From NCBI RefSeq assembly GCF_019977755.1, contig NZ_AP025144.1, positions 2,728,001-2,792,000 of the forward strand: a stretch of DNA of 64,000 nucleotides, read 5' to 3'. Both the position numbers and the translations under genes were made by a program. The notes under the pieces are model-generated. The model had not been told where the DNA came from. It made no database searches and saw only the letters and a list, made by a program, of their open reading frames with translations. The DNA is from Vibrio penaeicida. Lineage in GTDB: Bacteria; Pseudomonadota; Gammaproteobacteria; Enterobacterales; Vibrionaceae. Shown in pieces: positions 22,240-47,652 of the stretch (position 1 is its first letter; every line of letters starts with the position of its first letter).

Positions 22240-22265
22240 TTGGCTTTCCTCTCTTTTTCAAAGGA

Positions 22266-23231: not shown

Positions 23232-23270
23232 GTCTCAACGTCCTCTCATGTCGTCGGTTCGCACCATGCA

Positions 23271-28529: not shown

Positions 28530-28550
28530 ACCCCGTCATTTCGCAGCCAG

Positions 28551-28745: not shown

Positions 28746-28748
28746 GCC

Positions 28749-29153: not shown

Positions 29154-29557
29154 TAAGCCCTCTCCTTTTCGTCTTCTGGGTATTGAGCCCAGGGAAGCTG
29201 AAAATGTGGACCGTCTTTGAATGTCCTCCAGTCACCGCCCCACTCAATCGGAATTCGAAGCTCATCAGCCGCCTGTTTCATGGCGTCCGCAATCTTGTAG
29301 TAAAGTGGCCAACTCCAATCAACTGTTCCATCTACCCACGCCCCCAAGTCAACAGCATGACCGGTAAGGTGACGGCTTCGCAGGGTTGTTGACGCACCGG
29401 AACTGAGCAGGCGTCTTTGCCGTTCGATAGCTCTCAAACCTTCCAATACGGTGAAATCAACGGAGGTGATGTTAATCGCCCTTTCAACCACACGTACAAG
29501 GTCAGGGTGAACCCCAACTAAGTGTTGGCGTGAGCGTTTACCCAGTCGATAAGCCAT
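29153..29557 (-). CDS. Endolysin, M15 D-alanyl-D-alanine peptidase family
   Basis: 134 residues from the ATG at 29557 (AAGGGC upstream); a longer frame upstream runs through two terminators and is unlikely. The zinc peptidase motif SRHLTGHAVDL (H67, D70) and DGPHFQLP (H118) identify the M15 peptidase used by phages to cleave peptidoglycan cross-links. No signal peptide, so release depends on the neighbouring holins. Confidence 0.85.
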   Translation of the reverse strand: MAYRLGKRSRQHLVGVHPDLVRVVERAINITSVDFTVLEGLRAIERQRRLLSSGASTTLRSRHLTGHAVDLGAWVDGTVDWSWPLYYKIADAMKQAADELRIPIEWGGDWRTFKDGPHFQLPWAQYPEDEKERA

Positions 29558-29580
29558 TTTGATAGCCCTTAAAACGCGAA

Positions 29581-29642
29581 AACCCGGCACCTTAAGGCAA
29601 CCGGGTTTACAAACGAAAACGCCCCGAACTGAGTTCAGGGCG
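29581..29642 (-). terminator. Two consecutive terminators at the start of the late operon
   Basis: On the minus strand, a CGCCC/GGGCG stem (29620-29642) is followed by GTTTTCG, then an AACCCGG/CCGGGTT stem (29581-29607) is followed by TTTTCGCG. They lie between Q and the lysis genes, as the tR' terminator does in lambda, and are the expected targets of Q antitermination. Confidence 0.65.
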
Positions 29643-29710
29643 CATATCTTCATAATATGGGATTTAATCTAGTTGGTTGTGTACAAAAAATCAACTATTT
29701 TGACAAGGCG

Positions 29711-30067
29711 CTAAGCCACGTTGTCTATCGCCGCATCAACCCAAGCTGTGCCGGATTTCACCAGAACATCCGCTCTGCGTCGGTCAATATCGAGCCACCT
29801 GGCGACTTGAGAGACATTACTGCCACCGGTGTAAAACAACACCACTGCCTGCCCCATCTCTTCATCTCGGTGATTGAGCCTGGCGACGGCACTGTCCACC
29901 AACATGGCATCGTCATCATTGATGAGCGGAGAAGGCAAAGTTGAGCCCAGTAACTTCGTGAAAGTGGTGATGGACGGATAGCCCACGGTCAGGTCGCTAT
30001 TCACCCTCGCCCATCGTCCCCACTGCTCTAAGAGCCAAGGAGTGTTATGAGTAATAAGCTCCGCCAT
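29711..30067 (-). CDS. Late antiterminator, Q type
   Basis: 118 residues from the ATG at 30067 (AGAGGA upstream). LLEQWGRWARVNSDLTVGYPS, DDDAMLVDSAVARLNHRDEEMGQAVVLFY and VLVKSGTAWVDAAI match the Phage_antitermQ family. It includes a sigma-like helix-turn-helix (GNVSQVARWLDIDRRRADVLV region). It would load on RNA polymerase at the late promoter and read through the two terminators downstream. Confidence 0.78.
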   Translation of the reverse strand: MAELITHNTPWLLEQWGRWARVNSDLTVGYPSITTFTKLLGSTLPSPLINDDDAMLVDSAVARLNHRDEEMGQAVVLFYTGGSNVSQVARWLDIDRRRADVLVKSGTAWVDAAIDNVA

Positions 30068-30294
30068 AAATGTCCTCTCTTTTTTGAACGTGCAGATAAT
30101 GCGATGAAATCTTAGACCACTTAAGGGTTTCACTCATCATCTGACACAACTGCTTTGCGATAACCATAATCGCAAATGACCAATTAGGAAAGGGACAGAG
30201 AACGTGTTGGGCGGTTTGAATGACTGTCAATGCAGACAATAGATGATTATTGCCTATCTACCGGCGTAAGGCTCATATGTTTTATCTTCATTTT
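30068..30294. other. Junction between Q and the cassette array
   Basis: No convincing gene. A TTG-start frame of 64 codons overlaps Q by 23 bases and lacks a good ribosome-binding site. From 30247 the sequence TTATTGCCTATC...GGCGTAAGGCTCATATG repeats, with changes, the ends of the two IS110-type remnants at 36.2 and 37.4 kb. This marks the left edge of the array. Confidence 0.5.
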
Positions 30295-30714
30295 CTAGGA
30301 TTGAAACAAAGCTGAGAATCTTGCTGACCACTGTTTAGCATATTCGTAGTTACCGACCGACACTTGAATTAGAGGTGTATCAGTGTCGCTAATCGTAAAC
30401 TCCAGTTTGTTGTTAATTAATGAGTGCTTGTGTCTCCCGTTAACCGTTTTATTCTGTTCTGTATATGTATGCTGCCAACTGATCACCTTGCTAAATTCAA
30501 TTTTTTTACTAACCTCCACACCTACAAATGCAAGCATTTGGTTAGATTTGTCAACTAATACAACATAAGGTCTACCAACCATTTTATAATCTTCAGAGAA
30601 ACCTTCACTTTTGAGAGTTTCTATCAATGCTGCGCGCTTTTTACGCGCCTTTAATTCTGATGAAATAAAAAATACGACTAAAGCAACAACGCCTAAGCCC
30701 ACTAACCATTCCAT
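30295..30714 (-). CDS. Cassette protein: membrane-anchored, unknown function
   Basis: 139 residues from the ATG at 30714 (GGAGG six bases upstream). One N-terminal membrane helix (about 3-20), a basic stretch KARKKRAALIE, then a soluble beta-rich domain. No family recognised. It is the left-most cassette. Its 3' end meets an IS110-type end sequence instead of a normal attC. Confidence 0.6.
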   Translation of the reverse strand: MEWLVGLGVVALVVFFISSELKARKKRAALIETLKSEGFSEDYKMVGRPYVVLVDKSNQMLAFVGVEVSKKIEFSKVISWQHTYTEQNKTVNGRHKHSLINNKLEFTISDTDTPLIQVSVGNYEYAKQWSARFSALFQS

Positions 30715-30859
30715 TTTTAACCTCCAACACATTAACATTTATATACTTCATACCAACTAAGCCTAAAGTACTAATACCAAAACAGGAACTAAAGCTTATA
30801 TAGAGCATAATTCAATACTTTCATTGGAAATTGTGAGGATATTCAAAGTACTAGGTGAA

Positions 30860-30967
30860 CATAGCGCCCACTTAAACCGCTGCTGCCGCATTGCGCCTTA
30901 AACACAATTATTAATTGAAAACTAAAAATACAACGCGTTAGCTGTCGGTTTAAAACTTTTGTTATGA
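30860..30967 (-). other. attC site A
   Basis: On the minus strand it opens CATAACAAAAG, has a central AACGCGTTG, and closes GGTTTAAGTGGGCGCTATG. It follows the 31.1-31.8 kb gene pair. Confidence 0.75.
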
Positions 30968-31089
30968 TTTTCCAGATTTCACTTACAACTAACCCTAAAG
31001 TGATCTCATACGCAACCATTAAGCACTTAGTTGCATTCTAATGCAAAATCCATATTCTGTTCTGAAAGGTCACTAATAACATAAGCTCA

Positions 31090-31626
31090 ATGAAAGAAAA
31101 CCTACCATACACACTACCGAAAAACACAAAAGAGCAACTTAAAATCCTTTCAAAGATTACTTCTATCCCATCTAATCTCTTGGTAGATGCTGGAGAACTA
31201 GAAGTAGAAGCTATTTCATCTATGGTCTTGTATCGCCATATGGATAGACTTCAAAGGATTGAAGCCATGCGTTTAATTCGTAGCGTCCCGAACAGAGCAT
31301 TAATGGGTAAGATCATATCCAAAACACTTGATACAACGTATGTTAACCCTCAATGGGGGATTTGGTCGCTATCTAATGATGAGTTAAAGAAAGATATTGC
31401 GGTACATTCAACAATCGACTCTTTCGCAGGCTATGTTGGTGTTGGGGCTTCCGTGCTAAGTGGGAAAGACCTGGTCAAAGACTTGTGGTCTCTTAAGAGG
31501 ATGGGAAAGAAACATTGGGTAACGATTGTAATATGGGGTTGCATCTATTTTAATAAAAAAGAGCTAAATAAAGCACGCAACGAGCTAGAGAATAGAACAA
31601 CATTACAATCTTCGGGTATGTACTAA
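31090..31626 (+). CDS. Cassette protein of unknown function, upstream of a small membrane protein
   Basis: 178 residues, no recognised domain. The first half is helical (MKENLPYTLPKNTKEQLKIL). A moderately hydrophobic region with GYVGVGASVL is near 118-127 and another, WVTIVIWGCIYF, near 142-153, so it may associate with the membrane. It is encoded against the attC orientation with its own upstream region. The stop overlaps the next start (TAATG style coupling), making a two-gene unit. Confidence 0.6.
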   Translation: MKENLPYTLPKNTKEQLKILSKITSIPSNLLVDAGELEVEAISSMVLYRHMDRLQRIEAMRLIRSVPNRALMGKIISKTLDTTYVNPQWGIWSLSNDELKKDIAVHSTIDSFAGYVGVGASVLSGKDLVKDLWSLKRMGKKHWVTIVIWGCIYFNKKELNKARNELENRTTLQSSGMY

Positions 31627-31823
31627 TGATACAATCAATTATTATCAAAGTGCTATTCAGTATTTTTTTATTCGGCATGGTTGCTTGGTATTGGAACGAC
31701 TCAAGTGAGTCAACAAAGACTGGGTTATTTTTCTTTGTATTTACGCTAGCCTTTTTCCAAAATGCTTATTACACCCATAAGCTAGAAAAGCTGAAAGAGC
31801 AAAAGAAGAGCGAGCATTTATAA
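31626..31823 (+). CDS. Cassette small membrane protein with two helices
   Basis: 65 residues, with helices at about 5-22 and 32-48 and a charged C-terminus (HKLEKLKEQKKSEHL). Translation is coupled to the preceding gene. The pairing of a soluble or peripheral protein with a small membrane protein resembles immunity or defence pairs, but nothing shows this directly. Confidence 0.6.
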   Translation: MIQSIIIKVLFSIFLFGMVAWYWNDSSESTKTGLFFFVFTLAFFQNAYYTHKLEKLKEQKKSEHL

Positions 31824-31924
31824 CTTCAGCTTATACCGCAGACAACGCACAAAACACGCCTTAAACACAACGCATAGCAAAAATGCCACGCGTTGCGAAT
31901 CACTCTTAAACAGATTGTTATGCA
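31819..31924 (-). other. attC site B
   Basis: On the minus strand it opens GCATAACAATCTGTTTAAGAG, continues AACGCGTGGCATTTTTGC, and closes near GCTGAAGTTATAA. The opening overlaps the stop codon of the CoiA-like gene. It resembles the half attC at 58.42 kb closely. Confidence 0.8.
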
Positions 31925-32667
31925 ACTGCTCCATAGCGTCTTAAGAACTCTTCTTTGCGATGCGCTTGAATACAGAAAGAACTGAATTCGTTGAAGCGTT
32001 TTAGCTGCCATAGAATGCCCTTGCCAAAGTCAAGATACACTGGTTTCGTTGCATTTAACCACACTTGTTTTGGTCGTTTCCACTCATAGAAAAAATGACC
32101 AACATGAGTATCTTTAATTAAGCTCTCTATTTTATCAGATGAATGTATTTCGATTAGTTCATCTGGTTGGTATTCAGAAATATGGAAGTAGATAAAGTGT
32201 GTTTTATGATTCGTATTTTGAACGCCAATGTCCACCATAGATGCATGGTTCGGGTCTGGTAATGCAGCCCTTAACTTCATATTTTTGGCTAGGTTCCTAC
32301 CATTTACAACCCAAATCATATCTCCGTAGAATTGCTCACGAGACTGTAATTCCTTATGCGACATCGATGAGTTTTGGAACTCTAATACCATACCATTAGG
32401 TAATTTAACGTCTGCTATATGTTTTTCACCGACCTCATCAAAGTCGACAATCTCTTGATAGTCATTTGCCCAATGGTTTTTCCAGTCTCTGTGCCACTGA
32501 CTTTCATTATCCCACCAAGGGTCACATGAATCTTTGCGTGTATGAGCCCAATGCCAACGTACTTTAGTGCCACACTTAGACAGCGTAGGCTTGCCACAAA
32601 ACTGACATAAACCTTTTACCTTCGGAGACGGTTCCTGCCTAACTCCGTCAACTAACGAAAACTTCAT
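31918..32667 (-). CDS. Cassette protein: CoiA-like nuclease
   Basis: 249 residues. An N-terminal zinc ribbon (CQFCGKPTLSKCG) and W-H-W-A-H are followed by ESQWHRDWKNHW, E...HIADVKLPNGMVLEFQNSSM and REQFYGDMIWVVNG. This is the competence CoiA-like PD-(D/E)XK pattern, with D, E and Q in the expected catalytic order. Proteins of this kind occur as integron cassettes. A role in DNA uptake or defence is possible; no partner gene is present. Confidence 0.65.
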   Translation of the reverse strand: MKFSLVDGVRQEPSPKVKGLCQFCGKPTLSKCGTKVRWHWAHTRKDSCDPWWDNESQWHRDWKNHWANDYQEIVDFDEVGEKHIADVKLPNGMVLEFQNSSMSHKELQSREQFYGDMIWVVNGRNLAKNMKLRAALPDPNHASMVDIGVQNTNHKTHFIYFHISEYQPDELIEIHSSDKIESLIKDTHVGHFFYEWKRPKQVWLNATKPVYLDFGKGILWQLKRFNEFSSFCIQAHRKEEFLRRYGAVA

Positions 32668-32682
32668 TCTATCCTCTTGTTA

Positions 32683-32806
32683 CATAACAACTAATTAAGT
32701 AGCCAAAAGCGTCCCCATGGCGTTTCCGAAAACCACCGTAAACACAAAACCCAACGTAAGCCAAAAGTACCACGCGTTGTTTGTCGGTTTGAGGCTTTTG
32801 TTAGCC
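32683..32806 (-). other. attC site C
   Basis: On the minus strand it opens GGCTAACAAAAGCC, continues AACAACGCGTGGTACTTTTGG and closes ACTTAATTAGTTGTTATG. Its opening overlaps the stop codon of the small membrane gene. Confidence 0.8.
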
Positions 32807-33025
32807 ATTAGACAGCTTCGATGCGGCTATATATGCTAGCACCGAAAAAATGGCAACAACTATAAAACAGGGTAAGACATACTCAAATATGTATGGTGCA
32901 TTAGCGACTCTTTGCTCTTCACTCATATATGGGAACGATAGCTTCCTATATGCAACTAAAAACATTCCAAAATTTAGACCGCCTACTAGAAGGGCACTGA
33001 TAAGAAGGGAGATAATTTTTCTCAT
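32801..33025 (-). CDS. Cassette small membrane protein
   Basis: 74 residues with helices at about 5-27 and 49-69. The ribosome-binding site GGGAGGTG lies inside the end of the preceding truncated frame, so the two were probably coupled. No family recognised. Confidence 0.55.
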   Translation of the reverse strand: MRKIISLLISALLVGGLNFGMFLVAYRKLSFPYMSEEQRVANAPYIFEYVLPCFIVVAIFSVLAYIAASKLSNG

Positions 33026-33227
33026 TTACTTCACCTCCCAAAACCAAACTTCACGACTATCATTAAAATCAGACACAACACCAAAGAACTCATACAGGGA
33101 TCGTCTAAACATTCCGTCACTAGTGATTTCGTCTTTATTCCATAAATCAATATGATCTCCACTTCGGTTAGAAAAGGCTTCATAAAAGTGCCACGTATTG
33201 TTTGTCGGTTTGATGCTTTTGTTATAT
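33026..33227 (-). pseudogene. 5'-truncated cassette gene fused to half an attC site
   Basis: A minus-strand open frame ends ...FFGVVSDFNDSREVWFWEVK just before the next gene. Going upstream it has no start codon and runs straight into the first half of an attC (33181-33229). This looks like a deletion that joined the attC of the ccdAB cassette to the middle of another cassette's gene. Confidence 0.5.
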
Positions 33228-33229
33228 GT
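33181..33229 (-). other. Half attC site D (ccdAB cassette)
   Basis: On the minus strand CATATAACAAAAGC is followed by AACCGACAAACAATACGTGGCA, the first half of an attC. The second half (TTTAA-rich shoulder and GTTA end) is missing. Its first bases complement the start of the ccdAB cassette (TTATATG), as expected for one cassette. Confidence 0.6.
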
Positions 33230-33248
33230 TTAACTTTCGCCTATACTA

Positions 33249-33271
33249 TATGCGCATTATTAATGCGCATA
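33249..33271 (+). promoter_or_regulatory. ccdAB operator/promoter palindrome
   Basis: TATGCGCATTA and TAATGCGCATA form an almost perfect inverted repeat just before ccdA, next to a TATACT -10-like hexamer at 33242. It is the probable binding site for autorepression by CcdA/CcdB. Confidence 0.6.
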
Positions 33272-33281
33272 GGATTATTTT

Positions 33282-33527
33282 ATGGGAAACACATATAGCA
33301 AGAATGCACCAAAGAAAGCAACAAACCTTAGCTTAAACAGTGAGTTACTAGCCGAAGCTAAGCGCCTAAACATCAATCTATCCGCTACTATGGAGAAGGC
33401 ATTAGAAAAGGAAGTCAAACAACAATTAAAAGCCGAATGGTTAGAGGAAAACACTGAAGCGATTGAAGCTTGTAACGATTTGACAACAAAACACGGACTA
33501 TTTTCCGATTCATACCGAGTATTCTAA
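33282..33527 (+). CDS. ccdA: Antitoxin CcdA
   Basis: 81 residues. The N-terminal half (KKATNLSLNSELLAEAKRLNINLSATMEKAL) is a ribbon-helix-helix DNA-binding domain. The C-terminal half (EEVKQQL...WLEENTEAIEACNDLTTKHGLFSDSYRVF) is the flexible toxin-neutralising tail ending in the typical GLFSD-x-R-x-F. It represses its own promoter with CcdB. It is encoded against the attC orientation, as for toxin-antitoxin cassettes with their own promoters. Confidence 0.88.
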   Translation: MGNTYSKNAPKKATNLSLNSELLAEAKRLNINLSATMEKALEKEVKQQLKAEWLEENTEAIEACNDLTTKHGLFSDSYRVF

Positions 33528-33844
33528 TGCCTCAATTTACGCTTTATAAAAACAACGACAAGAGCACCGCTACCGCTTATCCATATTTTGTTGATGTCCA
33601 AAGCGAGTTGGTAGATTCACTTAATACTCGCTTAGTCATACCTTTAACGCCTATCGAACTACTAGAAAAAAAAGTACCAAGTCATTTATGTCCAATCATT
33701 CATATCGATGAAGGGGACTTCGTGATTCTTACCCACCAAATGGCTAGTGTACCTGTAGGGATTCTTGCGACCCCAGTCAACGAAATAAGTACGTTTAGAA
33801 ACGAAATAATTGCTGCAATAGACTTTTTGATCACTGGCATATAA
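33527..33844 (+). CDS. ccdB: Toxin CcdB
   Basis: 105 residues, the length of Vibrio CcdB. It begins MPQFTLYKNNDKSTATAYPYFVDVQSEL, has LVIPLTP and the C-terminal region ending IDFLITGI. CcdB poisons DNA gyrase. Its start overlaps the ccdA stop (TAATG). In integron arrays such cassettes counter-select loss of neighbours, and here they would also penalise loss of the prophage. Confidence 0.88.
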   Translation: MPQFTLYKNNDKSTATAYPYFVDVQSELVDSLNTRLVIPLTPIELLEKKVPSHLCPIIHIDEGDFVILTHQMASVPVGILATPVNEISTFRNEIIAAIDFLITGI

Positions 33845-33958
33845 TGCCAGCTTATGCCGCTGCCAACGCACTACAACGGCTACATCAATGCGCTTTAAAC
33901 ACTTAAGCCAATTCAAACCCAAAGCGTTGAGAATCTGAATGAAATCATTGTTATATGC
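33839..33958 (-). other. attC site E
   Basis: On the minus strand it opens GCATATAACAATGATTTC, with CAACGCTTTGGGTTTG, a TTAAGTGTTTAAAG shoulder, and closes GCAGCGGCATAAGC...ATTATATG. The last core base differs from the usual G. Confidence 0.7.
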
Positions 33959-33976
33959 CTGCACCCAAAGTAAGAA

Positions 33977-34255
33977 CTACAAGCTATATAGCCTTTTACG
34001 ATCTTTGCGATAACACTTAAAAGCCAAGACCCAGAGCGAAACCAAGGCAAACAAAGCTACCTTGTCGTATCTATGTAATAGCTTCCCAACTATGGCATCT
34101 TCCAAAGGTTTCATTACCCCTTGGAACTCAATTTCAGCGATGTAATATTTGCCGACCAATAAAATTACGACGTGAAAAACGACACCAAGAATCAATGCTA
34201 ATTGAGTTCTTTTGGATAATGAAAGCACATATAAAAATTCATATACAAAGTTCAT
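33977..34255 (-). CDS. Cassette small membrane protein
   Basis: 92 residues with hydrophobic segments at about 17-35 and 67-83 and basic ends (CYRKDRKRLYSL). It is one gene per cassette between sites E and F. No family recognised. Confidence 0.55.
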   Translation of the reverse strand: MNFVYEFLYVLSLSKRTQLALILGVVFHVVILLVGKYYIAEIEFQGVMKPLEDAIVGKLLHRYDKVALFALVSLWVLAFKCYRKDRKRLYSL

Positions 34256-34277
34256 TTTTACTTCCTAGCTGTATTGG

Positions 34278-34402
34278 CATATAACGCCCGCTTAAGCTGC
34301 TGCCACGCACTACAACAACTACCGCACAACACCTTAAACACTAGACCCACAGCAAACTGAAAGTGTCACACGTTGGTGGTCGGTTGAAGCTTTTTCATAT
34401 GC
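34278..34402 (-). other. attC site F
   Basis: On the minus strand it opens GCATATGAAAAAGCTTCAACC (variant first core) and closes GGCAGCAGCTTAAGCGGGCGTTATATGC, an almost classic Vibrio repeat end. Confidence 0.8.
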
Positions 34403-34409
34403 AACTTTT

Positions 34410-34544
34410 CTAACTTGGCAGTTTACAACGCCTTGCAGCTTTATGAAGAGCCTTCGCGAGATCTGATGTCATTTTATTAGGGTCAATATCTTTAGATTTC
34501 TCCCCAACATCACTTTTGTCTTTATGATTATTGGTCTTTTTCAT
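34410..34544 (-). CDS. Cassette micro-protein, third gene of the GNAT-like unit
   Basis: 44 residues, basic and Lys-rich (MKKTNNHKDKSDVGEKSKDI...KAARRCKLPS). The start overlaps the end of the previous gene by 17 bases in another frame, indicating translational coupling. It ends eight bases before the attC. Unknown function. Confidence 0.5.
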   Translation of the reverse strand: MKKTNNHKDKSDVGEKSKDIDPNKMTSDLAKALHKAARRCKLPS

Positions 34545-34701
34545 CATCGTTATTCTCATCAAGTATCTTATCCATCTGACCACCGGAAGCTAAAGCCTCT
34601 GGCTCTTCTTGGTTGCCAAGGGTATCTAGGAAATTCTTACTTACTCCTTTCCTTTCCTTGACACCTTTTATGTCTATCAATTTTCCTTTCTCTTCCTTCA
34701 T
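34528..34701 (-). CDS. Cassette micro-protein, second gene of the GNAT-like unit
   Basis: 57 residues: a basic N-terminal third (MKEEKGKLIDIKGVKERKG) and an acidic C-terminal half. It starts two bases after the stop of the GNAT-like gene. Unknown function; the spacing supports a real gene. Confidence 0.55.
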   Translation of the reverse strand: MKEEKGKLIDIKGVKERKGVSKNFLDTLGNQEEPEALASGGQMDKILDENNDDEKDQ

Positions 34702-34703
34702 AT

Positions 34704-35222
34704 TTACAGCCTCATAAACAAGTAGTCGCCTTTACTCACGTATGTTAACCCAAACGACTGATAGTAGTTTCTTACATCTGAATTAATAGGTTTCATTACC
34801 CGAATTTCGGTTGCTCCAAGTAACTCAGCATACGTAATCATTGTAAACAGAGTAGCAGGAAATACCCTAGGTCCAGATATTTCAGGGTTTGCTTCGATGA
34901 AATCCAACCTCATAGAAGAGCCGTAATATGTCGGGCGCCCTAACGATAAACTTAACAGTTCACCTTTTGACCAAACGGCCAACTCAAATCTCTTTGGATA
35001 CCTAAATTTAAACGCTGAATAACCTTCAACCCAATCCCAATCTACCTGCCTTTTTTCAGAGTTCGCCCACCATTTAGCCATTTTTAAGGCCTTACTATCA
35101 ATACATTTGAGTTCTATACTCTTGTACTCAGCTATTTTATTCAGCTTAATTTGAGCGGCTTTTACTGTGTTAAGCCTAACTTGAGAATAGCGCTGTTCAG
35201 CATCTAAATGCGTCGCTTTCAT
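34704..35222 (-). CDS. Cassette GNAT-like acetyltransferase-fold protein
   Basis: 172 residues. The C-terminal part (LFTMITYAELLGATEIRVMKPINSDVRNYYQSFGLTYVSKGDYLFMRL) has the GNAT ending, in which YYQSFGL matches the usual Y-x-x-x-GF segment. The N-terminus is helical. It heads a tight three-gene unit with two micro-proteins. Substrate unknown; a nucleic-acid modifying or toxin role cannot be judged from sequence. Confidence 0.55.
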   Translation of the reverse strand: MKATHLDAEQRYSQVRLNTVKAAQIKLNKIAEYKSIELKCIDSKALKMAKWWANSEKRQVDWDWVEGYSAFKFRYPKRFELAVWSKGELLSLSLGRPTYYGSSMRLDFIEANPEISGPRVFPATLFTMITYAELLGATEIRVMKPINSDVRNYYQSFGLTYVSKGDYLFMRL

Positions 35223-35334
35223 GATATCTCCTTTTCAAATGGAGACATCTTATTGACGACTGTACTTTAGGCAAAACTGAAAGCTGGTTTATAAGAAGTA
35301 CATCCCATTGATAAATTTGAAATTTTCACGCCTT

Positions 35335-35439
35335 GCATACAACCCAATTTAAGCAGATGCTAATGTAATAAATCCAAACAGTTCGCCGTAATCACAAATG
35401 CCACGCGTTTTTGGTAGGCTTGAGTTGATTGTTATACGC
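35335..35439 (-). other. attC site G
   Basis: On the minus strand it opens CGTATAACAATCAACTC, with AAAAACGCGTGGCATTTGTG, and closes TGCTTAAATTGGGTTGTATGC. Confidence 0.75.
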
Positions 35440-35881
35440 GTCCTAACGATGACGTAAGTTCGCTTACGATTCTTTGTTGGACATAAGGGAGGTACTCTTC
35501 ATAGAATGTTGCAGGACGTACGTTTGTAAGCTTTCCTTCGTCAACAGGCACCTTAATTTCGAAGCTCGTCTGCTTTACCCAATTAACCTTGATAAACAGT
35601 GCATTCCAATCAGATATATCAGCCGTACCATACTCTCCGGACTGTAAGCACTGAATAAAGCTTTTAGTAACGATACCGATACCTTTAACTTCGATATTGC
35701 GAATGTACCTCGGACTGACACTTTTTAAGTAGATAATATCGCCGACTTTTAATTGAGAAACCGCCTCATAAAGATCTTTAGAGTTGTCTTCATTCCAGCC
35801 AAGTACAAACTTGTTATTTTCAAAAAAATTTTCTTTAACTTCAGTGCCACCCCAATTTGATCCTGCGCCAAAAATCGCCAT
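35432..35881 (-). CDS. Cassette protein, possible EVE/PUA-like fold
   Basis: 149 residues. MAIFGAGSNWGGTEVKENFFENNKFVLGW is followed by LKVGDIIYLKSVSPRYIRNIEVKGIGIV, a pattern like EVE-type modified-base readers. No catalytic motif. EVE-like proteins occur in restriction/defence loci, but the fold is only suggested here. The stop overlaps attC G. Confidence 0.5.
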   Translation of the reverse strand: MAIFGAGSNWGGTEVKENFFENNKFVLGWNEDNSKDLYEAVSQLKVGDIIYLKSVSPRYIRNIEVKGIGIVTKSFIQCLQSGEYGTADISDWNALFIKVNWVKQTSFEIKVPVDEGKLTNVRPATFYEEYLPYVQQRIVSELTSSLGRV

Positions 35882-35911
35882 TTATCTCTCCATTACCATA
35901 TAAGAATATAA

Positions 35912-36267
35912 CGAATGACATGGATTCCCCCACCCTAGAGGCTGCCACACTGAGGTGGTATCGATTAACGCGGAGGCACCATGTCTAATTGTTCTTATTT
36001 TTGGCGGTATCAACATGGCGAAAAATCACTCTAGCATCCACGTCATCGATTCCAACGGGAAAGCTATTCTACACAAATCCGTCACCCACCCTAAACGCGA
36101 CTACTTTAACAGTTATTCGTCTATATGCATATAGTTGAAAGCGTGTAAAGGCGCACATTCGTGAACGAAATGACGAAACGAATTAGATGACTTTGTTGTT
36201 CGAAATGGATTGGCTGCTGACGCAGCCAAGAGAGTGTTATTGCCTATTGATAGGCGGAAGTCTCATA
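35912..36267. mobile_element. IS110/IS1111-type remnant, copy 1
   Basis: A plus-strand fragment MAKNHSSIHVIDSNGKAILHKSVT (from 36014) matches the N-terminus of IS110/IS1111 transposases (LAKNxFxxHxVDxxGK), then breaks off. It is followed by ~130 bp of non-coding end with the hairpins TTGGCTGC/GCAGCCAA and GCCTAT/ATAGGC. It sits where an attC is expected. A diverged copy is at 37096-37401. Confidence 0.65.
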
Positions 36268-36270
36268 TGT

Positions 36271-37071
36271 TTATTCTCCCCACTCGTGTAAACGGTTATG
36301 GACAGCTATAAATTTACTTGAAGGTCTATTTTTAATCTTGCGTGGAAGGTTGACAGTTTTTCCATGCAGATTGGTAGACATTAAGCGATCAAGTTTAGAA
36401 TAATCGCCGTCGCTGCCATTTGGGTCGTGATAGCGAATTTTATACTCACTGGATAGTGTTATAAGACCAGCATCAAATAGACGATGATGAAAGCTATTTA
36501 ACAGAATACCATTGCGCACATCCATTCTTTGTGCGTCTGTTGCATGCTTCCAAGGTATTATATGGGCGGCTTCGAGCCCTTGCACAAATGAAAGTCCAGT
36601 AAACGCACATTGATAAGAGTACGCTTTGAGTAGAGCTTGTCTAAATAACATTTGCTTGATACCACGGGATTTTACTTTACTGTAAATATCCTCTGACGAG
36701 TCAGGGTTATCAACCAATGACTTAATAATATTTGGATAAGAGAGCCCTTCTAGAGAAAAACCAAATGGGTTGCCATGTTCTTCCCACTTAAAGTCATATA
36801 CCTCTTCTAGACCATCTCCAAAATTTCTTAAGTCATATGCAATAAAGCCATCTCCAGGCTTTCCTGTAGAGTTAATTATCAGAATAGTTAAAGGCGGTAT
36901 TTTTTCTGCCAAGCAATAGTCTTGTATGACACCTAAGACGAACCTTATGGCTCGATGATGGACGCCTATAGCATCACCTAACTCTTTGTATGTAATCGTT
37001 TTACGAGCTCTAGCTCTTTGAGCCAATATAGGCCAAGCTTTATAGGCTCGCTCTACTTGGTTAATTGCCAT
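36271..37071 (-). CDS. Cassette HNH endonuclease
   Basis: 266 residues. The N-terminal domain (about 1-110) contains YKELGDAIGVHHRAIRFVLGVIQDYC, a winged-helix-like segment. The C-terminal HNH_2-type nuclease has CAFTGLSFVQGLEAAHIIPW, RNGILLNSFHHRLFDAGLITL. The HNH residues lie in AAHIIPW and NSFHHRLFD. Such proteins are common in restriction-like defence and in integron cassettes. Flanked on both sides by IS110-type remnants. Confidence 0.75.
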   Translation of the reverse strand: MAINQVERAYKAWPILAQRARARKTITYKELGDAIGVHHRAIRFVLGVIQDYCLAEKIPPLTILIINSTGKPGDGFIAYDLRNFGDGLEEVYDFKWEEHGNPFGFSLEGLSYPNIIKSLVDNPDSSEDIYSKVKSRGIKQMLFRQALLKAYSYQCAFTGLSFVQGLEAAHIIPWKHATDAQRMDVRNGILLNSFHHRLFDAGLITLSSEYKIRYHDPNGSDGDYSKLDRLMSTNLHGKTVNLPRKIKNRPSSKFIAVHNRLHEWGE

Positions 37072-37095
37072 ACTGATACATCCTCATAAACATCA

Positions 37096-37401
37096 CGAAT
37101 GACATGACTCCTCTCCTAGAACCTGCCACACTGTGGTGGTATCGACTTAGCGAAATCACTTTAGCATCTACGTTGTCAACTCCGACGGGAAAGCCATTCT
37201 CCGCAAATCCGTAACTTGCCCTAAATTGCTGACTACTTTACCAGAAATGCACTCGTGCGCATATATTTAGAAGTGTGTGGAGGCGCGCATTCGTGAACGA
37301 AATGACAAAATGAAGTAGATGACTTTGATGTTCGAGAAAGATTGGCTGCTATCGCAGCCAATAGAATGTTATTGCCTATTGACAGGCGGAAGGCTCATAT
37401 G
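37096..37401. mobile_element. IS110/IS1111-type remnant, copy 2
   Basis: Begins GAATGACATG and ends with the TTGGCTGC/GCAGCCAA hairpin and TTATTGCCTATTGACAGGCGGAAG, like copy 1. It has lost ~60 bp around the transposase start. Internal similarity is clear but diverged, so the copies are old. Confidence 0.6.
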
Positions 37402-37414
37402 TGTTATGTAAATC

Positions 37415-37876
37415 TTATATAGCAGCGGATGAAGATACTTTTAAGTTAAATAACTTTGTAAAGTTTTTTGCAGAGAATAACAGTCTATAGCTATCATCGT
37501 ATCCCTTAAGCTCGACGAATTTCTTCTTTTTAAACTGATTTATTATATATTTACGACCCTTATCACTGGCAGCAAAAATTGTTCTCCAATTACCATTACA
37601 ACTCTGGAGCATCCGAACTAATTGATCGTTAACCTTGATTGGGTCATGAGCTTTCACTCCATCACCTAAAAGTGAAAAACATTCCTCTTCCCAAAACTGG
37701 AAATAAACCGCCATATCACCCGCTTTAGATACTCCAATCAAGCCATAAGCCACGCCATGTATAGATTCTTTTACGAGATAATCTCCGCCTTTTGATGTAT
37801 ACCAAGCATCCACCTCTGAACTAGACAGAGCGGAAAAAGATAGTATTGATAAGATTAAAGTATAGATATAACGCAT
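37415..37876 (-). CDS. Cassette secreted protein of unknown function
   Basis: 153 residues with a signal peptide (MRYIYTLILSILSFSALSSS, hydrophobic 3-17). The mature part has two cysteines (in EEECFSLLGDG and LQSCNGNW), which could form a periplasmic disulphide. No domain recognised. It lies between attC H and an IS110-type remnant. Confidence 0.6.
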   Translation of the reverse strand: MRYIYTLILSILSFSALSSSEVDAWYTSKGGDYLVKESIHGVAYGLIGVSKAGDMAVYFQFWEEECFSLLGDGVKAHDPIKVNDQLVRMLQSCNGNWRTIFAASDKGRKYIINQFKKKKFVELKGYDDSYRLLFSAKNFTKLFNLKVSSSAAI

Positions 37877-37957
37877 AATTAAACCAAATGAGTTGCATAT
37901 TAGGCGAGTGTACCATCACCTACCAGTCAGTTCCGTGCGGAAAGTCAACTTCGGATT

Positions 37958-38083
37958 TACACAACTGCCAATTAAGCTGCCAAAAGCGCCCCCATGGCGT
38001 TTCCGCAAACCACCGTAAACACTCATTTCACCGCAAACTAAAAATGCCACGCGTTTTTGGTCTGCTTGAATTGTTTGTATGCA
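37958..38083 (-). other. attC site H
   Basis: On the minus strand it opens GCATACAAACAATTCAAGC, with AAAAACGCGTGGCATTTTTAG, and closes TTGGCAGCTTAATTGGCAGTTGTGTA. The long inner stem (GGAAACGCCATGGGGGCGC) is shared with site C. Confidence 0.75.
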
Positions 38084-38086
38084 TAT

Positions 38087-38554
38087 TTACCAGCGGCTGC
38101 CCAACCCTGTGCTAACAACACGTTTTCTCTTTGGAGGCGCTACATAAGAACTATCAATGTATATCTCTTTACAAGATCTGCACGCCCAGCGCCCTTTAGA
38201 ACTGGCTCGTTGAAGACGAACAAGTAATTCATCTACATCTTTGCAGCGTTGGCAATAAGGACCTTCTTTTTGACCATTAGTCTCTAACCAATAATACGGC
38301 TTTTCATATATAGTGTTTCCTTTGTTCTCAACCTCTTTTTGAAGCTTAGAAATCAATTCATCTTTCTCAAGCAATAGAGTTTGAATTTCTGACACTTCAA
38401 TTCGCGCATCTGCAAGTGCTGATATGAGATCTGCTATTTGCAGATTTACCTCTGCTTGCTCAAGAGTAGAAGCACTTGTGCGAACAGCTTTAGCTAGTTC
38501 CACAGCTGTTTTTAGACTTGTTAAAGCAGTTCCTATTGTAACTATATCTGCCAT
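38087..38554 (-). CDS. Cassette protein with coiled coil and zinc ribbon
   Basis: 155 residues. Residues 8-75 are helical (DLISALADARIEVSEIQTLLLEKDELISKLQKEVE), probably a coiled coil. The second half holds YCQRCKD...WACRSCKEIY, a two-CxxC zinc ribbon. No family assigned; such proteins are common cargo of Vibrio integrons. Confidence 0.6.
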   Translation of the reverse strand: MADIVTIGTALTSLKTAVELAKAVRTSASTLEQAEVNLQIADLISALADARIEVSEIQTLLLEKDELISKLQKEVENKGNTIYEKPYYWLETNGQKEGPYCQRCKDVDELLVRLQRASSKGRWACRSCKEIYIDSSYVAPPKRKRVVSTGLGSRW

Positions 38555-38740
38555 ATTTCCTCTTTATTCGCATAACAACTTATTAGACCGAAACAATCCG
38601 TCTATCTCAGCAGAACGTTCCCACCTAACGGGTTAGCGCTTAATTCTTAAACTCATGCGATTATGCCACAACATTAAGTGCATATGGTTTAAAAGATGCA
38701 TGTGAGTTTGTGGCGGTATACTACCCTGATTAGAGGCATG
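38555..38740. other. ORF-less segment between attC I and the zinc-ribbon gene
   Basis: No gene seen. GTTGTTATG (minus strand, 38571-38579) resembles a cassette core end, and GCCACAAAC/GTTGTGGC (38664-38715) is an inverted pair. It may be a degenerate ORF-less cassette or the leader of the gene to the left. Confidence 0.35.
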
Positions 38741-38902
38741 CAACGCTATAATGAAGCTGTCACAAACCGCCTTAATGACTGTAACCAACGCACCGTAAAA
38801 ATACTGACGTTGGCTGTCGGTTTGAAGCTAAGAGATGGCGCCATGTGGGATGAAAATATAGCTAAAAATTAGCTATTGACGCCATAGTCTCTTGTTAGAG
38901 TA
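38741..38902 (-). other. attC site I, interrupted by a ~63-bp palindromic insertion
   Basis: On the minus strand CTCTAACAA, then an insert of about 63 bp (38830-38893) with ends AAGAGACTATGGCG and CGCCATCTCTT, then AGCTTCAAACCGACAGCCAACG and a normal second half closing TTATAGCGTTGC. Removing the insert gives a typical attC. It belongs to the Kiwa cassette. Confidence 0.65.
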
Positions 38903-38905
38903 CCA

Positions 38906-39880
38906 TTACGCCGCATTTTCAGCAGCTTCTTCTATATTATCTTTTGCTACACTCTCATAATATTTCTTAGTCAATTCTGATTGTAAGAAGTCATCGTTTA
39001 GTAACTTAAGAAATAAGTTTTGAGATTTTTTTGTTTTCAAATCGAATTGAGAGCCATCAGCACTATATTTAAATTTGCCTTTTAACGCAGGGTGAGTATT
39101 TGTAAAAGACAATATTTCACGATTAGGTATTACTGATAAAACAGGCGATTGACTGGCTGATTTAACCAACTTTCTTGAAAAAGTTATGTCATCAAGACGA
39201 GATTCAAACACGCCACAGTCCATTACTAAGTCAGATGTTTTAATATTCTCTACACCCTGAGTTGCAATGTTTTTAATGGCATCATGGAAACCAAAAAACC
39301 TTTCTAGTGCTTTAATATCGAGGATATAATATTTGCCATTCAATTTTATAAACTGAAACTTGGGATCAATTTTAAGGATGTCTTGGTCCAGTTTCTGAAA
39401 CCTATTTGAACCTCGCATTTTAGTTAAGCTAAAACCACTATCTTTTTGTAATAATGTAATTGGATAATGATGCTTATAAATGGCAAGTTGAACGTCTTGA
39501 TTGCCAATTAAGATAAGTACACCTTCCAGTTGTTTTAATGAGTCATCACTAAATGAGAAAGGGTCAAACTTTTCACTTTCAATTATTTTTTTTAAGTTAG
39601 ATAGCTCATCAGGGATATCGTCTAAATCATATTCGTATAGAGCATTCTTCCGATCGTCTGCACTTGATATAGGAATAAGTGACAGATCATCGTTAAGAAG
39701 AATTTTATTACTCAATGATTCAGTAAACATTTCTGCTAATTTAGTTTGATCAGCTTCGTTAATATCAACAGATTTAACACGCATTCCTTCATCGCTATCT
39801 AAAAGAAAGAAAAATTCAGCAGAACATCCTTTCGCTGTTATAACAGATGAAATTTCTTCCTTTAAGTTTTCAATAGTCAT
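38906..39880 (-). CDS. kwaB: Kiwa anti-phage protein KwaB (DUF4868)
   Basis: 324 residues, close to the usual ~315. Features of the DUF4868/KwaB family include an acidic N-terminal half, GVLILIGNQDVQLAIYKHHYPITLL (YKHHYP at 135-140), FIKLNGKYYILDIKALERFFGFHDAI and a basic C-terminal region. KwaB binds DNA and, with the membrane sensor KwaA, blocks phage replication and late transcription. It overlaps kwaA by four bases (ATGA) and ends just before its attC. Confidence 0.8.
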   Translation of the reverse strand: MTIENLKEEISSVITAKGCSAEFFFLLDSDEGMRVKSVDINEADQTKLAEMFTESLSNKILLNDDLSLIPISSADDRKNALYEYDLDDIPDELSNLKKIIESEKFDPFSFSDDSLKQLEGVLILIGNQDVQLAIYKHHYPITLLQKDSGFSLTKMRGSNRFQKLDQDILKIDPKFQFIKLNGKYYILDIKALERFFGFHDAIKNIATQGVENIKTSDLVMDCGVFESRLDDITFSRKLVKSASQSPVLSVIPNREILSFTNTHPALKGKFKYSADGSQFDLKTKKSQNLFLKLLNDDFLQSELTKKYYESVAKDNIEEAAENAA

Positions 39881-40476
39881 TCGACTTTCCTCGCAAAATA
39901 TACTTTTTTATCTAAATCCAACGTATTTAATTGATCAAGTTCACTTAACCTATCTTTTGTTATTACAACAATATTTTCTTTTATACCTGTCCTTGTCTTA
40001 ACCGTGACTTTGTATAGCCTAAAACCTAAAACAGCAAGTGTCGGGTTAGCATAAAACTTATCTGTTTTTACATAAATAATGCCTATGACAATTAACAAAA
40101 ATGCTAAAGCTACCAAATATCTTGTACTTGCAAGGTTAAAACAAATTAAGGGGATAATATAAGTAGTGAGAAATGTAAGGTGTTCGTAATTTAGGTCTTC
40201 AATTTTTGTAATTTCAACAGGTAATTTCTTACTACCTGAAACCCTGTAATCAAAGCGGTAAAAAAAAATAATTCCAAATAAGACCAATAGCAAAGAAATA
40301 GCAGGAACTATGTTCTTCTTAATAACCTCCAAAAATCCAATGAATTGACAGTTGTCTCCAAAACACATAGGAATATCTACTGTTATCACTATGATTAAGA
40401 AAAATAGAAACCAAAGAGACATTATGTATAATTCGAATTTGTCCCAAATTTCACCAAACTTCATATTTTCATCCAT
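39877..40476 (-). CDS. kwaA: Kiwa anti-phage membrane protein KwaA
   Basis: 199 residues with four membrane helices at about 16-34, 54-73, 99-117 and 119-137 and a soluble C-terminal part. This matches KwaA size and topology. KwaA senses phage infection at the inner membrane and works with KwaB. It directly precedes kwaB with an ATGA overlap. The pair is one cassette of ~1.75 kb between attC J and attC I: the cassette start TTAGAG matches CTCTAAC at the opening of attC I. Confidence 0.75.
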   Translation of the reverse strand: MDENMKFGEIWDKFELYIMSLWFLFFLIIVITVDIPMCFGDNCQFIGFLEVIKKNIVPAISLLLVLFGIIFFYRFDYRVSGSKKLPVEITKIEDLNYEHLTFLTTYIIPLICFNLASTRYLVALAFLLIVIGIIYVKTDKFYANPTLAVLGFRLYKVTVKTRTGIKENIVVITKDRLSELDQLNTLDLDKKVYFARKVE

Positions 40477-40490
40477 GCTTGATTACTGGT

Positions 40491-40616
40491 GCTCTAACAC
40501 CCAGTTAAGTAGCCAAAAACTTACAAATGCCATTTCTGCAAACCACCTTAAACTCTAAAATCACTACAAACCAAAACTGCCATGCGTTGGCTGTCGGTTT
40601 AAAGCTTTTGTTAGCT
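40491..40616 (-). other. attC site J
   Basis: On the minus strand it opens AGCTAACAAAAGCTTTAAACC, with GCCAACGCATGGCAG, and closes GGCTACTTAACTGGGTGTTAGAGC. It separates the right-most cassette from the Kiwa cassette. Confidence 0.8.
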
Positions 40617-40949
40617 TTTATTCTCCGCGGTTTCTTCGGACTTTCTTACAGGACTAGAGGCGAGCACTTCTTTAACTGCATTAATGACGTAGTTCAGTGA
40701 TAAGCCAATACCAACCATACCTGCAACACCAATATACTCTCGCCAGCTGGATGGCAAGTTATTTGGATCGCCATGAAGCGCTGCTATTATTAACTCAAAA
40801 CCAGATGATATGGCATACACGGCTAGGAATACGAGTGCTACGTTATTAACTTTGAAGTCCTTCCGTTTATAAAACTCTAAACAAGCAAATGTAAAACTAA
40901 ATACAACCCCGATTAATATACCTAGAGCAGTTCCATCAAAAGACATCAC
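40611..40949 (-). CDS. Cassette three-helix membrane protein
   Basis: 112 residues with hydrophobic segments at about 6-24, 35-56 and 71-92. The start overlaps the stop of the upstream glycine-zipper gene (ATGA). No family recognised. The pairing of a three-helix membrane protein with a glycine-zipper membrane protein suggests a two-component membrane system. Confidence 0.6.
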   Translation of the reverse strand: MMSFDGTALGILIGVVFSFTFACLEFYKRKDFKVNNVALVFLAVYAISSGFELIIAALHGDPNNLPSSWREYIGVAGMVGIGLSLNYVINAVKEVLASSPVRKSEETAENKS

Positions 40950-41194
40950 CCAACTCCTTTTGACTCTTTGCCTAGGAGCGCTCCTAAAACACCACCTAAA
41001 ATTGCTCCAACAGGTCCACCAATTGAAGCACCTAATGCTGCTCCACCAATTAAGCCTACCGCCGCTGAAGCTTCACCAGTAACTTTTACTGCGTCTTTGA
41101 ATGAATTGTTACAATACCCACAGCGATAATTTGCTGGTGATTCTCCATCAGGTATATCCGACACATTGTTACAGTGTCTACATTTGTATTTCAT
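40946..41194 (-). CDS. Cassette protein: zinc ribbon plus glycine-zipper membrane segment
   Basis: 82 residues from the ATG at 41194 (AAGGAAAG upstream). An N-terminal zinc ribbon (CRHC...CGYC) is followed by a Gly/Ala-rich hydrophobic stretch (about 46-74) with repeated GxxxG spacing (GGAALGASIGGPVGAILGG). Such segments oligomerise in membranes. Together with the next gene it forms the right-most cassette. Function unknown. Confidence 0.65.
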   Translation of the reverse strand: MKYKCRHCNNVSDIPDGESPANYRCGYCNNSFKDAVKVTGEASAAVGLIGGAALGASIGGPVGAILGGVLGALLGKESKGVG

Positions 41195-41457
41195 AATCTT
41201 TCCTTGAAAGCTAACAATTCTTATGGGACAAAAATGTCTGAATAATTCATTCAAAGTGTGTCCCACAGTATTCTGACCACTTCGACAGAATACCATGCAA
41301 TTCATTGCACAATCTAGACTTATGCACTTCATTCTGTCGACTATCTGGCGTGAAAGTGGACACTAGTCAAATTTTAATCAACGCGTAAGGAATAACCGGT
41401 CTCTGGGGTGAGTACTTCAATTAACTCGATCTGAAAAGCTGAAGGATTTGACCTTAT
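41195..41457. other. Right junction of the cassette array with phage sequence
   Basis: No gene. GCTAACAATTC at 41209-41219 could be a core remnant. GTGTCCACTTTCACGCCAG (minus strand, ~41347-41365) and GTGGGACACACTTTGAATG (~41256-41274) look like diverged insertion-sequence ends. No attI or intI was seen, so the entry mechanism is not visible. Confidence 0.4.
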
Positions 41458-41793
41458 TTATCCCCCTCGCTTTTTTTCACTTTCAAGCAGCTTCATCACC
41501 ACCTGAATCGCCTCTCCTGACCGAATCAGCGCGCCATCACAGCGATAGACAAGCCACCCTAGCCTCATCGCCTCAGAGTACTTCTTCAGGTCGTCAGAGA
41601 AGCCCTTCCCGCGCGTATGTCGCCCCTGGCTCCATCCGCCGCCCTCGACTTCAACGGCGAGGTCATGCTCTGGCCAGGCGAAATCAAAGCGCCATTTGCG
41701 GGTGGGATGAAATTGAAACTCTCGGTGAGGCGCTGGCAATTTCAGCGCTCTCACCTGTAGAGCAAACTCAGCCTCGAGTTTACTCGCCATCAT
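41458..41793 (-). CDS. PD-(D/E)XK endonuclease-like phage protein
   Basis: 111 residues from the ATG at 41793, overlapping the BRO stop. WRFDFAWPEHDLAVEVEGG gives the D-x(n)-E-x-E pattern of DUF559/Vsr-like nucleases, followed by GRHTRGKGFSDDLKKYSEAMRLGW. It is common in phage early regions, possibly processing replication or recombination intermediates. Confidence 0.7.
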   Translation of the reverse strand: MMASKLEAEFALQVRALKLPAPHREFQFHPTRKWRFDFAWPEHDLAVEVEGGGWSQGRHTRGKGFSDDLKKYSEAMRLGWLVYRCDGALIRSGEAIQVVMKLLESEKKRGG

Positions 41794-42439
41794 TCGCTTC
41801 TTGCTCAATGTGCCGAATATCCTGATCCGACAAAACAAAGTTACGCTGAAGCAGTCGGGTTTCGGCTTGGCTTACCGCTTCTTTGAAAGGTTCGAGTGAA
41901 GCTTGAAGGTGCTGAAGGAAGGCGATGCAGTCGTTGAGTTTGTCGTTGGGGATGAGCTGGACGCGGTTCACGCCTGCGTATTGTCTGAGTGCTCGCCATG
42001 CCGCAAATTCGGCGGCGTTGCTTTTTTGGAACCGATTGCCGATGCACCACACGATATAGCGCAGACTTTGGTACTGCTCCGGGGTAATGGTTTCGATACT
42101 GCGGTTGGGAATGTACGCGCCCGTTTTGCGGATTTGGGGTAAGACTTCGTTTGTCACCCACTTTCGAAATTGTTTCGCTATGGGTTTGCGAGATTTAAAG
42201 ATCAGGGCATACAAGCCTGATTCGTTGATAGCTTTTGCGGTTTGTCTGTTCTTACCAAGGGGGTCGGTAATATCTACCCCCTTAGTTTCATCATCGTCCA
42301 GTGATAAAACAACATCTTTATGGTTTTTAACACCAAGAACGCGACAAATATCTTTGGCGACAAACCAAGGTTGGTCATCGATTAAAACGATACGAACGGG
42401 TTCACTAGAAAAATCAAATATGCGAATAGAGTTAGGCAT
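41780..42439 (-). CDS. BRO-N domain antirepressor
   Basis: 219 residues from the ATG at 42439 with CGGAGG five bases before it; the frame is open further upstream but that region looks like RNA. The BRO-N domain: VRIVLIDDQPWFVAKDICRVLGVKNHKDVVLSLDDDE, NRQTAKAINESGLYALIFKSRKPIAKQFRKWVTNEVLPQIRKTG. The C-terminus is helical. It likely inactivates the prophage repressor. Its ribosome-binding site lies in a sequence complementary to the C4-like RNA upstream. Confidence 0.82.
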   Translation of the reverse strand: MPNSIRIFDFSSEPVRIVLIDDQPWFVAKDICRVLGVKNHKDVVLSLDDDETKGVDITDPLGKNRQTAKAINESGLYALIFKSRKPIAKQFRKWVTNEVLPQIRKTGAYIPNRSIETITPEQYQSLRYIVWCIGNRFQKSNAAEFAAWRALRQYAGVNRVQLIPNDKLNDCIAFLQHLQASLEPFKEAVSQAETRLLQRNFVLSDQDIRHIEQEANDGE

Positions 42440-42680: not shown

Positions 42681-42743
42681 GCGGATTTTGCCGCAATGAA
42701 ATCAGTTTTGCTCACCTGTACCAGCTTGTCAACGGTTTTTTGG

Positions 42744-43448: not shown

Positions 43449-43459
43449 GTGTGCCTCCA

Positions 43460-47645: not shown

Positions 47646-47652
47646 GGAGTCC

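Follow-up and report, generated by a model that had tools for sequence, protein, structure and literature searches.

A cassette array without an integron integrase in the Ant-Q slot of a Vibrio penaeicida tRNA-Pro prophage

Can a temperate phage hold a store of integron gene cassettes without an integron integrase of its own, and how would such a store change? The question is raised by a 64-kb stretch of the Vibrio penaeicida genome (C1:2728001-2792000; hereafter the window, whose coordinates are used unless a contig or locus is named), in which cassettes and attC recombination sites follow one another inside a prophage. The genome (G000) comprises 6.78 Mb in three contigs. Integrons on chromosomes contain extensive pools of cassettes and are commonly viewed as sedentary; given a slot for cassettes, a temperate phage would supply a vehicle for them, with defence and toxin-antitoxin cassettes carried along. 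We found that a cluster of attC sites lacking an integron integrase (CALIN) sits in the nin-like slot of one tRNA-Pro prophage, between the P, Ant and nuclease genes and Q. Comparison with related prophages makes it somewhat probable that a CALIN is maintained in this slot by a lineage of temperate prophages in the Vibrio penaeicida group, with cassette turnover largely by homologous recombination.

An attC cluster without intI inside a prophage

Because an Rfam scan of the window gave no attC family, we built a covariance model (R1, 127 positions) trained on 40 chromosomal attC sites of the same genome, 15 from C1 and 25 from C2. The model detected exactly nine attC sites in the window (E values from 2e-20 to 3e-4), all within 30,857-40,616 and in one orientation, and no further match at E values up to 5. 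With its filters off, it returned the identical nine sites from 29-42.5 kb. A sequence-only profile made from the C1 array gave 10 matches at E values up to 1, all on the minus strand of the array interval. A simple attC motif search was rejected, just part of its 14 matches over the window (2.7 expected) falling in the array.

Nine model matches in 9.8 kb with no intI nearby constitute a CALIN. The window holds no integron integrase, the sole match in the genome over the family cut-off being at C1:1465107-1466051, 1.26 Mb away, and the arrangement of a complete integron, intI beside attI and the array, was not found at the window array. The surrounding prophage is bounded by 19-bp exact att repeats at 9838 and 50267 and has the genes of a lambda-like temperate prophage: integrase, CI, CII, O, P, Q, lysis, terminase, portal and head genes, with P, Ant and the phrog_503 gene at 41.4-43.5 kb. 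The first-pass annotation had proposed at least nine attC sites in one orientation, without an integrase, between antirepressor/nuclease genes and Q, and a defence system and a toxin-antitoxin pair among the cassettes. All of this is borne out by the covariance model, by profile matches on both sides of the array, by relatives with arrays in the same slot, and by the profiles of Kiwa and CcdAB.

On the host chromosomes, no model match was found around the host intI (L009-L014, C1:1464000-1583999); the host attC arrays lie about 128 kb from intI on C1 (C1:1593749-1607931) and on C2 (C2:1645156-1683286). A second, related prophage region (L041:12289-19991; C2, about 1637-1645 kb) ends beside the C2 array. 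It contains a CII gene 95.5% identical to that of the window, O, P, phrog_503, YqaJ and RecT genes and a weak integrase match, with no attC match by the model.

Sister prophages carry different cassettes in the same slot

In a comparison set of 227 genomes of the genus, own genome included, the portal gene was found (E values up to 1e-50) in three, our own and G116 and G117, both Vibrio penaeicida, whose prophages have the same att core and the same flanks. Two IMG/VR contigs, L095 and L096, which show part of the region only, complete the set of four sisters. Their portals are 97-99% identical to that of the window, and all have arrays upstream of Q, with nine attC sites by the model in the window, eight in G116, five in G117, one in L095 and three in L096 (E values below 0.01) plus one at 0.13. 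In both G116 and G117, the same arrangement lies on a single contig. Among 14 further loci (sister arrays, surrounding chromosome, 120 kb beyond intI and the C2 flanks), 13 model hits at E values up to 1 all fell in the sister-array loci L019 and L022. Among 39 loci fetched by their portal genes, hits were limited to the four with 98-99% identical portals (L056, L057, L061 and L064), many of the others being short and possibly not extending to the slot. In a phage collection the portal matched 294 records, all at less than 60% identity, the best 15 of the 294 reaching 42%; no relative came up when viral contigs were searched with O.

The four sister regions contain full-length matches to only 5 of the 16 window cassette proteins: CoiA, CcdA, CcdB and a 153-aa protein are shared with G116, and a 147-aa protein with L095. 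A 128-aa open reading frame (ORF) of the window array has matches in the anchor only (the conserved Ant-side border described below). The shared cassettes are arranged differently, ccdAB coming before CoiA in the window and after it in G116. The downstream neighbours of the 153-aa cassette differ between the two prophages, and the sequences diverge where its long site ends.

The remainder of the phage is mosaic. Ratios of nonsynonymous to synonymous substitution rates (dN/dS) of 0.012-0.053 show that TerL, portal and the major head gene are under purifying selection; the ratio is 0.23-0.32 for the scaffold gene and 0.53 for Ant (G116 only). The CI proteins of the window and its sisters are 38-39% identical, as against 98% for the integrases; the endolysins of G116 and G117 match the first 30 residues only of that of the window, and the tail-region gene at 12615-14714 is not kept in G116. 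Such mosaicism, as read from these comparisons, argues for exchange between phages. The distance between the att cores is 40,429, 40,897 and 41,341 in the three prophages measured. Near Q, the sisters have AHH nuclease and Imm11-type genes that are not in the window (L096:7069-8262 by Pfam; ORFs in L095, G116 and G117 by likeness).

Phage attC sites have impaired stems and mismatched halves

The same annotation had taken the sites for ordinary working attCs. This view is weakened by the finding that most have lost stem pairs and many have mismatched halves; the well-paired stem of a working attC is missing from most phage sites. In the host arrays (73 sites), 97.6% of the stem positions are paired, compared with 82.8% after shuffling; in the nine window sites the value is 77.3%, compared with 73.7% after reshuffling, and it was reached by 13 of 500 reshuffles. 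The inner stem was scored over 18 pairs. At least 16 were formed in 2 of the 26 phage sites (3 of the 26 have fewer than 16 scorable pairs) versus 69 of 73 host sites, a count that favours host stems, as the structure of the model was derived from 40 of them. The mean fraction paired is 0.72 in phages, 0.86 on other Vibrio chromosomes and 0.97 in the host (phages versus other chromosomes, p = 6e-6).

The two halves of a site often belong to different subtypes. Under the looser of two rules (half mismatch of at least 0.15), this is so in 14/26 phage sites, 2/73 host sites and 6/65 sites of other Vibrio chromosomes; with scoring against the host pool alone, the counts are 15/26 and 2/73 for phages and host. 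This excess in the phages points to a testable, integrase-independent movement of cassettes. Ahead of each of the three cassettes that G116 also carries, the attC is alike in the two prophages at its right end (ranks 3, 5 and 3 of 72 pairs, window versus G116) and less so at its left end (ranks 10, 56 and 53). An integrase cutting at G|TT would leave that right end behind, so its being carried along points to homologous recombination.

Long sites derived from attC and two insertion sequences

Sites of a second type, R2, start near TAAC-ACATATGAG, end near ATGTCATTC-GTTA and measure about 310-370 bp in phages. The full form was found in G111 (L124:1412-4478), where an insertion sequence (IS) with a 371-aa transposase stands at the left end of an attC, followed by the attC body and by an IS with a 350-aa transposase at the right end. 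R2 sites correspond to this composite with its middle deleted, by several junctions, and have no transposase gene; a junction at about 139-149|2845 of the composite is common to the window, G116, G117 and L096. Judged by the L124 composite, R2 sites are attCs remodelled by two IS110/IS1111-like ends. The IS110 family name comes partly from PF01548 matches at other loci, that of L102, which has an R2 left half, being below the cut-off; otherwise the two elements are presumably IS110/IS1111 members by their resemblance to these families. R2-like DNA is present in 82 of the 227 genomes (own included) at E values up to 1e-8.

On several Vibrio chromosomes, R2 sites separate tandem genes (L124-L130, most clearly in L124). 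The idea that the IS110-like repeat is an ordinary IS remnant was rejected, because the repeat consists of two IS ends located at attC boxes. A search with 27 residues of its IS110-like N terminus against PDB sequences retrieved nothing relevant, and its 59-aa frame had no Pfam match.

Cassette ends and borders of the array

Complementarity between the start and the end of a unit is a mark of its former closure as a circle. It was scored over six positions against 5000 shuffles, in a test that covers eight window intervals, one of them spanning two cassettes, and skips the second R2 site and the anchor of G116. Phage cassettes ending in Vibrio cholerae repeat (VCR)-type sites (n = 18, four phages) match at 3.83 of 6 positions on average, versus 2.53 when shuffled (0/5000), and those ending in R2 sites (n = 8) at 4.75, versus 2.72 (0/5000). 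For ordinary chromosomal cassettes (73 intervals), the values are 4.90 and 2.79 (0/5000). As a group, therefore, the phage units have the complementary R'' and R' ends of integron cassettes, several of them matching at 0-2 of 6 positions.

A clean insertion had been expected at both borders, and only the Ant side conforms. There, the window, G116 and G117 are alike up to a GTT, at the end of a conserved anchor, and then diverge; counted from this GTT, the first window cassette is complementary at 6/6 positions. G117 has a second anchor copy, which forms the right half of the site after its first cassette. Long anchor matches occur in 3 of the 227 genomes (own included), the same three as for the portal, with an additional 41-bp piece in our genome at C1:1889059. 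Complementary ends mark former integron cassettes, and together with the anchor GTT they show that site-specific recombination once took place. The opposite border, next to Q, is ragged and varies between sisters, similarity setting in at about 30,224 with no common site.

No array-free orthologue of the slot was found. Q homologues in G001 and G127 (54-56%) were rejected as array-free slots owing to their different setting, and so was G082, in which the phrog_503 homologue is immediately followed by another gene, one that resembles L041:599 (Q-like by eye). Elsewhere on the chromosome of G000 (L047, L048 and L055), lone genes lie outside arrays beside an attC, half an R2 site or an anchor piece.

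How the array may have formed and changed

We propose that an integron integrase formed the cassettes and joined them into the first array; the simplest candidate is the host IntI acting in trans. Later gain, loss and reordering in the phage would have occurred largely via homologous recombination across the attC repeats, perhaps aided by the phage YqaJ/RecT pair or by RecA. Phage transcription may read the cassettes, because their genes follow the direction of the phage operon, on the minus strand, except in two cassettes, ccdAB and that at 31,090-31,823. As promoter-like sites are rarer than in shuffles (20 versus 33.3), no claim is made for internal promoters. The array should also travel in virions, since the similar genome lengths suggest selection for packaging. 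It is a tentative and rather doubtful extension that the lineage took over the modularity of integrons without the integrase. In this reading, the attC repeats would provide the homology by which its own YqaJ/RecT exchanges entire cassettes between the arrays of phage and host at near-constant genome length, and its moron slot would thereby be a rechargeable cassette magazine.

A number of observations weigh against the proposed explanation. Other Vibrio chromosomes, a fairer comparison than the host, are also rich in imperfect stems: a paired fraction of at least 0.889 (16/18 sits just below this mark) is reached in 12/64 of their sites, 2/25 phage sites and 60/73 host sites. The sister phage sites keep some covariation, with 75.7% paired versus 69.5% after reshuffling (0/500; 17 sites). 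Under the strict rule for chimeras, which requires at least 0.8 for both attC halves, they number 6/26 in phages, 0/73 in the host and 4/65 on other chromosomes (phages versus other chromosomes, p = 0.03). When the bottom strands of the nine sites and the first R2 site were folded, the result was not clearly better than for shuffles, in a comparison that covered window sites only. For five chromosomal R2 cassettes, complementarity was at chance level (3.80 versus 3.01; 487/5000). The anchor GTT and the complementary ends cannot date the site-specific recombination, and nothing ties RecT/YqaJ directly to the exchange. Finally, the attC belonging to CoiA itself is similar between the window and G116 at each of its two ends (ranks 1 and 5 of 72), which is how an integrase would leave it.

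This last point also speaks for an alternative that we consider possible, if on the unlikely side, namely that host IntI in trans does most of the ongoing exchange and that mismatched halves are a side effect. An intI over the cut-off is present in G116 and G117 as in G000, the first cassette starts at the anchor GTT with fully complementary ends, and the change of neighbour at the 153-aa cassette breaks at the end of an R2 site. Such exchange is at odds with the impaired stems of most phage attCs and with shared blocks that take in the right end of the preceding attC.

It is improbable that an old stretch of chromosomal integron was trapped in the prophage and is just decaying in an immobile phage. 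The poor stems and the partial sites would be accounted for, and the chromosomal flanks, common to the sisters along with the phage, would also fit vertical descent. Decay does not agree with the low dN/dS of TerL, portal and head genes and the similar lengths, with the divergence of CI beside near-identical integrases, which speaks for exchanged immunity, or with the scarcity of full-length sister matches among the cassette proteins. It is hardly credible that chromosomal integron separates two distinct elements here, or that the arrangement is an assembly artefact: arrays do exist elsewhere in the genome, but att cores lie at both ends, the arrangement recurs within single contigs of G116 and G117, which upholds the reading of one prophage in the first-pass annotation, and tblastn of the 16 cassette proteins (E values up to 1e-5) against 226 kb of C1 and C2 integron regions gave 0 matches.

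Relation to known arrays

Phage-borne CALINs are already known as a kind; the present case is distinct by its slot, the turnover between sisters and the signs of integrase-independent exchange. According to the accessible part of their article, Qi et al. (2023, PMC9892861) reported 17, which like ours are attC clusters without intI in phage genomes, and with IntI1 they observed activity for five of six tested attCs, taken from three virulent phages. Compared with what that part describes, the window has an 11-kb array (array sizes were not compared) in a single slot of a temperate lineage, mostly different cassettes in sisters, mismatched halves, Kiwa and a second site type. The sole record in the phage collection matching the one window attC searched (37950-38090) was Vibrio anguillarum phage Va_90-11-286_p16 (MK672802), also a temperate Vibrio phage with Vibrio-type cassettes. 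The portion of its description at hand reports induction and re-infection, an intIA of its own, cassettes all of which also occur in the host array, and excision at points that coincide with attC sites, whereas the window prophage has no intI, lies at tRNA-Pro and has an internal array. Chromosomal Vibrio integrons have the same attC family and the ccdAB cassette; the phage array differs by the lack of intI, poorer stems and more mismatched halves.

The attC site is a known target of IS1111-type insertion sequences (Tetu and Holmes 2008; Post and Hall 2009, both as cited in PMC11187229), and the IS110/IS1111-like elements found here are likewise seated at attC ends. As far as those citations go, R2 sites differ in being collapsed remnants of two different elements, one per attC end, without a transposase gene. 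A literature search, with most subscription papers outside its coverage, found neither a recognised V. penaeicida prophage array of this kind nor mismatched attC halves in phages.

Content of the array and other features of the window

The array had been read as cassettes split by attC sites, which stands with amendments: between about 30,225 and 41,215 there are 13 cassette-like units, each with a site after it, of which nine are attC, two R2 and two partial, and two of the cassettes have their genes on the plus strand (Table 1). With adjacent KwaA and KwaB genes, the second cassette is a predicted Kiwa system; its DNA (38890-40480) had no match in other genomes among the 227 at E values up to 1e-20. 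A ccdAB cassette like that of the window is found in 41 of the 227 genomes, own and G116 prophage copies counted.

Table 1. Coordinates in the window of the cassette array and of other prophage features.
Feature	Position	Strand	Basis or remark
Ant-side anchor, ending in GTT (41215-41213), start of first cassette	41205..41385	-	alike as far as GTT in window, G116 and two G117 copies
Cassette 1, gene 1: Gly-zipper/zinc-ribbon-like protein	40946..41194	-	Pfam below cut-off (longer ORF scanned); ATG at 41194 picked by eye
Cassette 1, gene 2: weak GtrA match	40611..40949	-	below Pfam cut-off
attC, chimeric by halves	40490..40616	-	covariance model
Cassette 2, predicted Kiwa: KwaA 39877-40476, KwaB 38906-39880	38906..40476	-	PADLOC KwaA 6.7e-80, KwaB 4.1e-117; Pfam KwaB
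attC	38714..38833	-	covariance model
Cassette 3: 155-aa protein	38087..38554	-	no Pfam match
attC, sole window site with 18/18 inner pairs	37957..38084	-	covariance model
Cassette 4: 153-aa protein, common to G116	37415..37876	-	protein comparison with sister regions
R2 site 1 (long, IS-remodelled attC)	37094..37405	-	
Cassette 5: HNH_2 endonuclease	36271..37071	-	Pfam
R2 site 2 (long, IS-remodelled attC)	35909..36275	-	
Cassette 6: 149-aa protein	35432..35881	-	no Pfam match
attC, weak	35333..35437	-	covariance model, E 3e-4
Cassette 7: 172-aa protein plus two short ORFs	34410..35222	-	
attC	34277..34400	-	covariance model
Cassette 8: 92-aa protein	33977..34255	-	
attC	33837..33956	-	covariance model
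Cassette 9: ccdA 33282-33527, ccdB 33527-33844	33282..33844	+	Pfam CcdA 3e-29, CcdB 7.8e-36
Partial attC (model positions 1-41)	33183..33223	-	sequence-only profile; longer in G116
Cassette 10: 74-aa protein	32801..33025	-	
attC, chimeric by halves	32680..32806	-	covariance model
Cassette 11: CoiA-like protein, common to G116	31918..32667	-	CoiA_N and CoiA_nuc (Pfam), each slightly below cut-off
attC, chimeric by halves	31816..31923	-	covariance model
Cassette 12: two ORFs, 178 and 65 aa	31090..31823	+	
attC	30857..30967	-	covariance model
Cassette 13: 147-aa protein, common to L095	30295..30738	-	
Left half of R2 site, running into phage sequence	30225..30297	-	
attL core, 19 bp, in tRNA-Pro (9807-9883)	9838..9856	+	exact repeat of 50267; core at two places in G116 and G117
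attR core	50267..50285	+	exact repeat; same core in G116 and G117
Phage tyrosine integrase	48899..50113	+	Pfam Phage_integrase, Arm-DNA-bind_1; 98% identity in G116 and G117
YqaJ-type exonuclease and RecT	46572..48606	+	profile matches
O, P, Ant (Bro-N) and phrog_503 genes, upstream flank of array	41458..44407	-	profile matches
Q antiterminator, downstream border of array	29711..30133	-	Pfam Phage_antitermQ; phrog_79
Endolysin, holin, TerL, portal, scaffold and major head gene region	21250..29653	-	profile matches

Rfam matches to C4 antisense RNA and isrK adjoin the Ant gene on the minus strand (42494-42577 and 42616-42697). Outside the prophage, an isrN match on the minus strand (61140-61282) slightly exceeded the Rfam gathering score.

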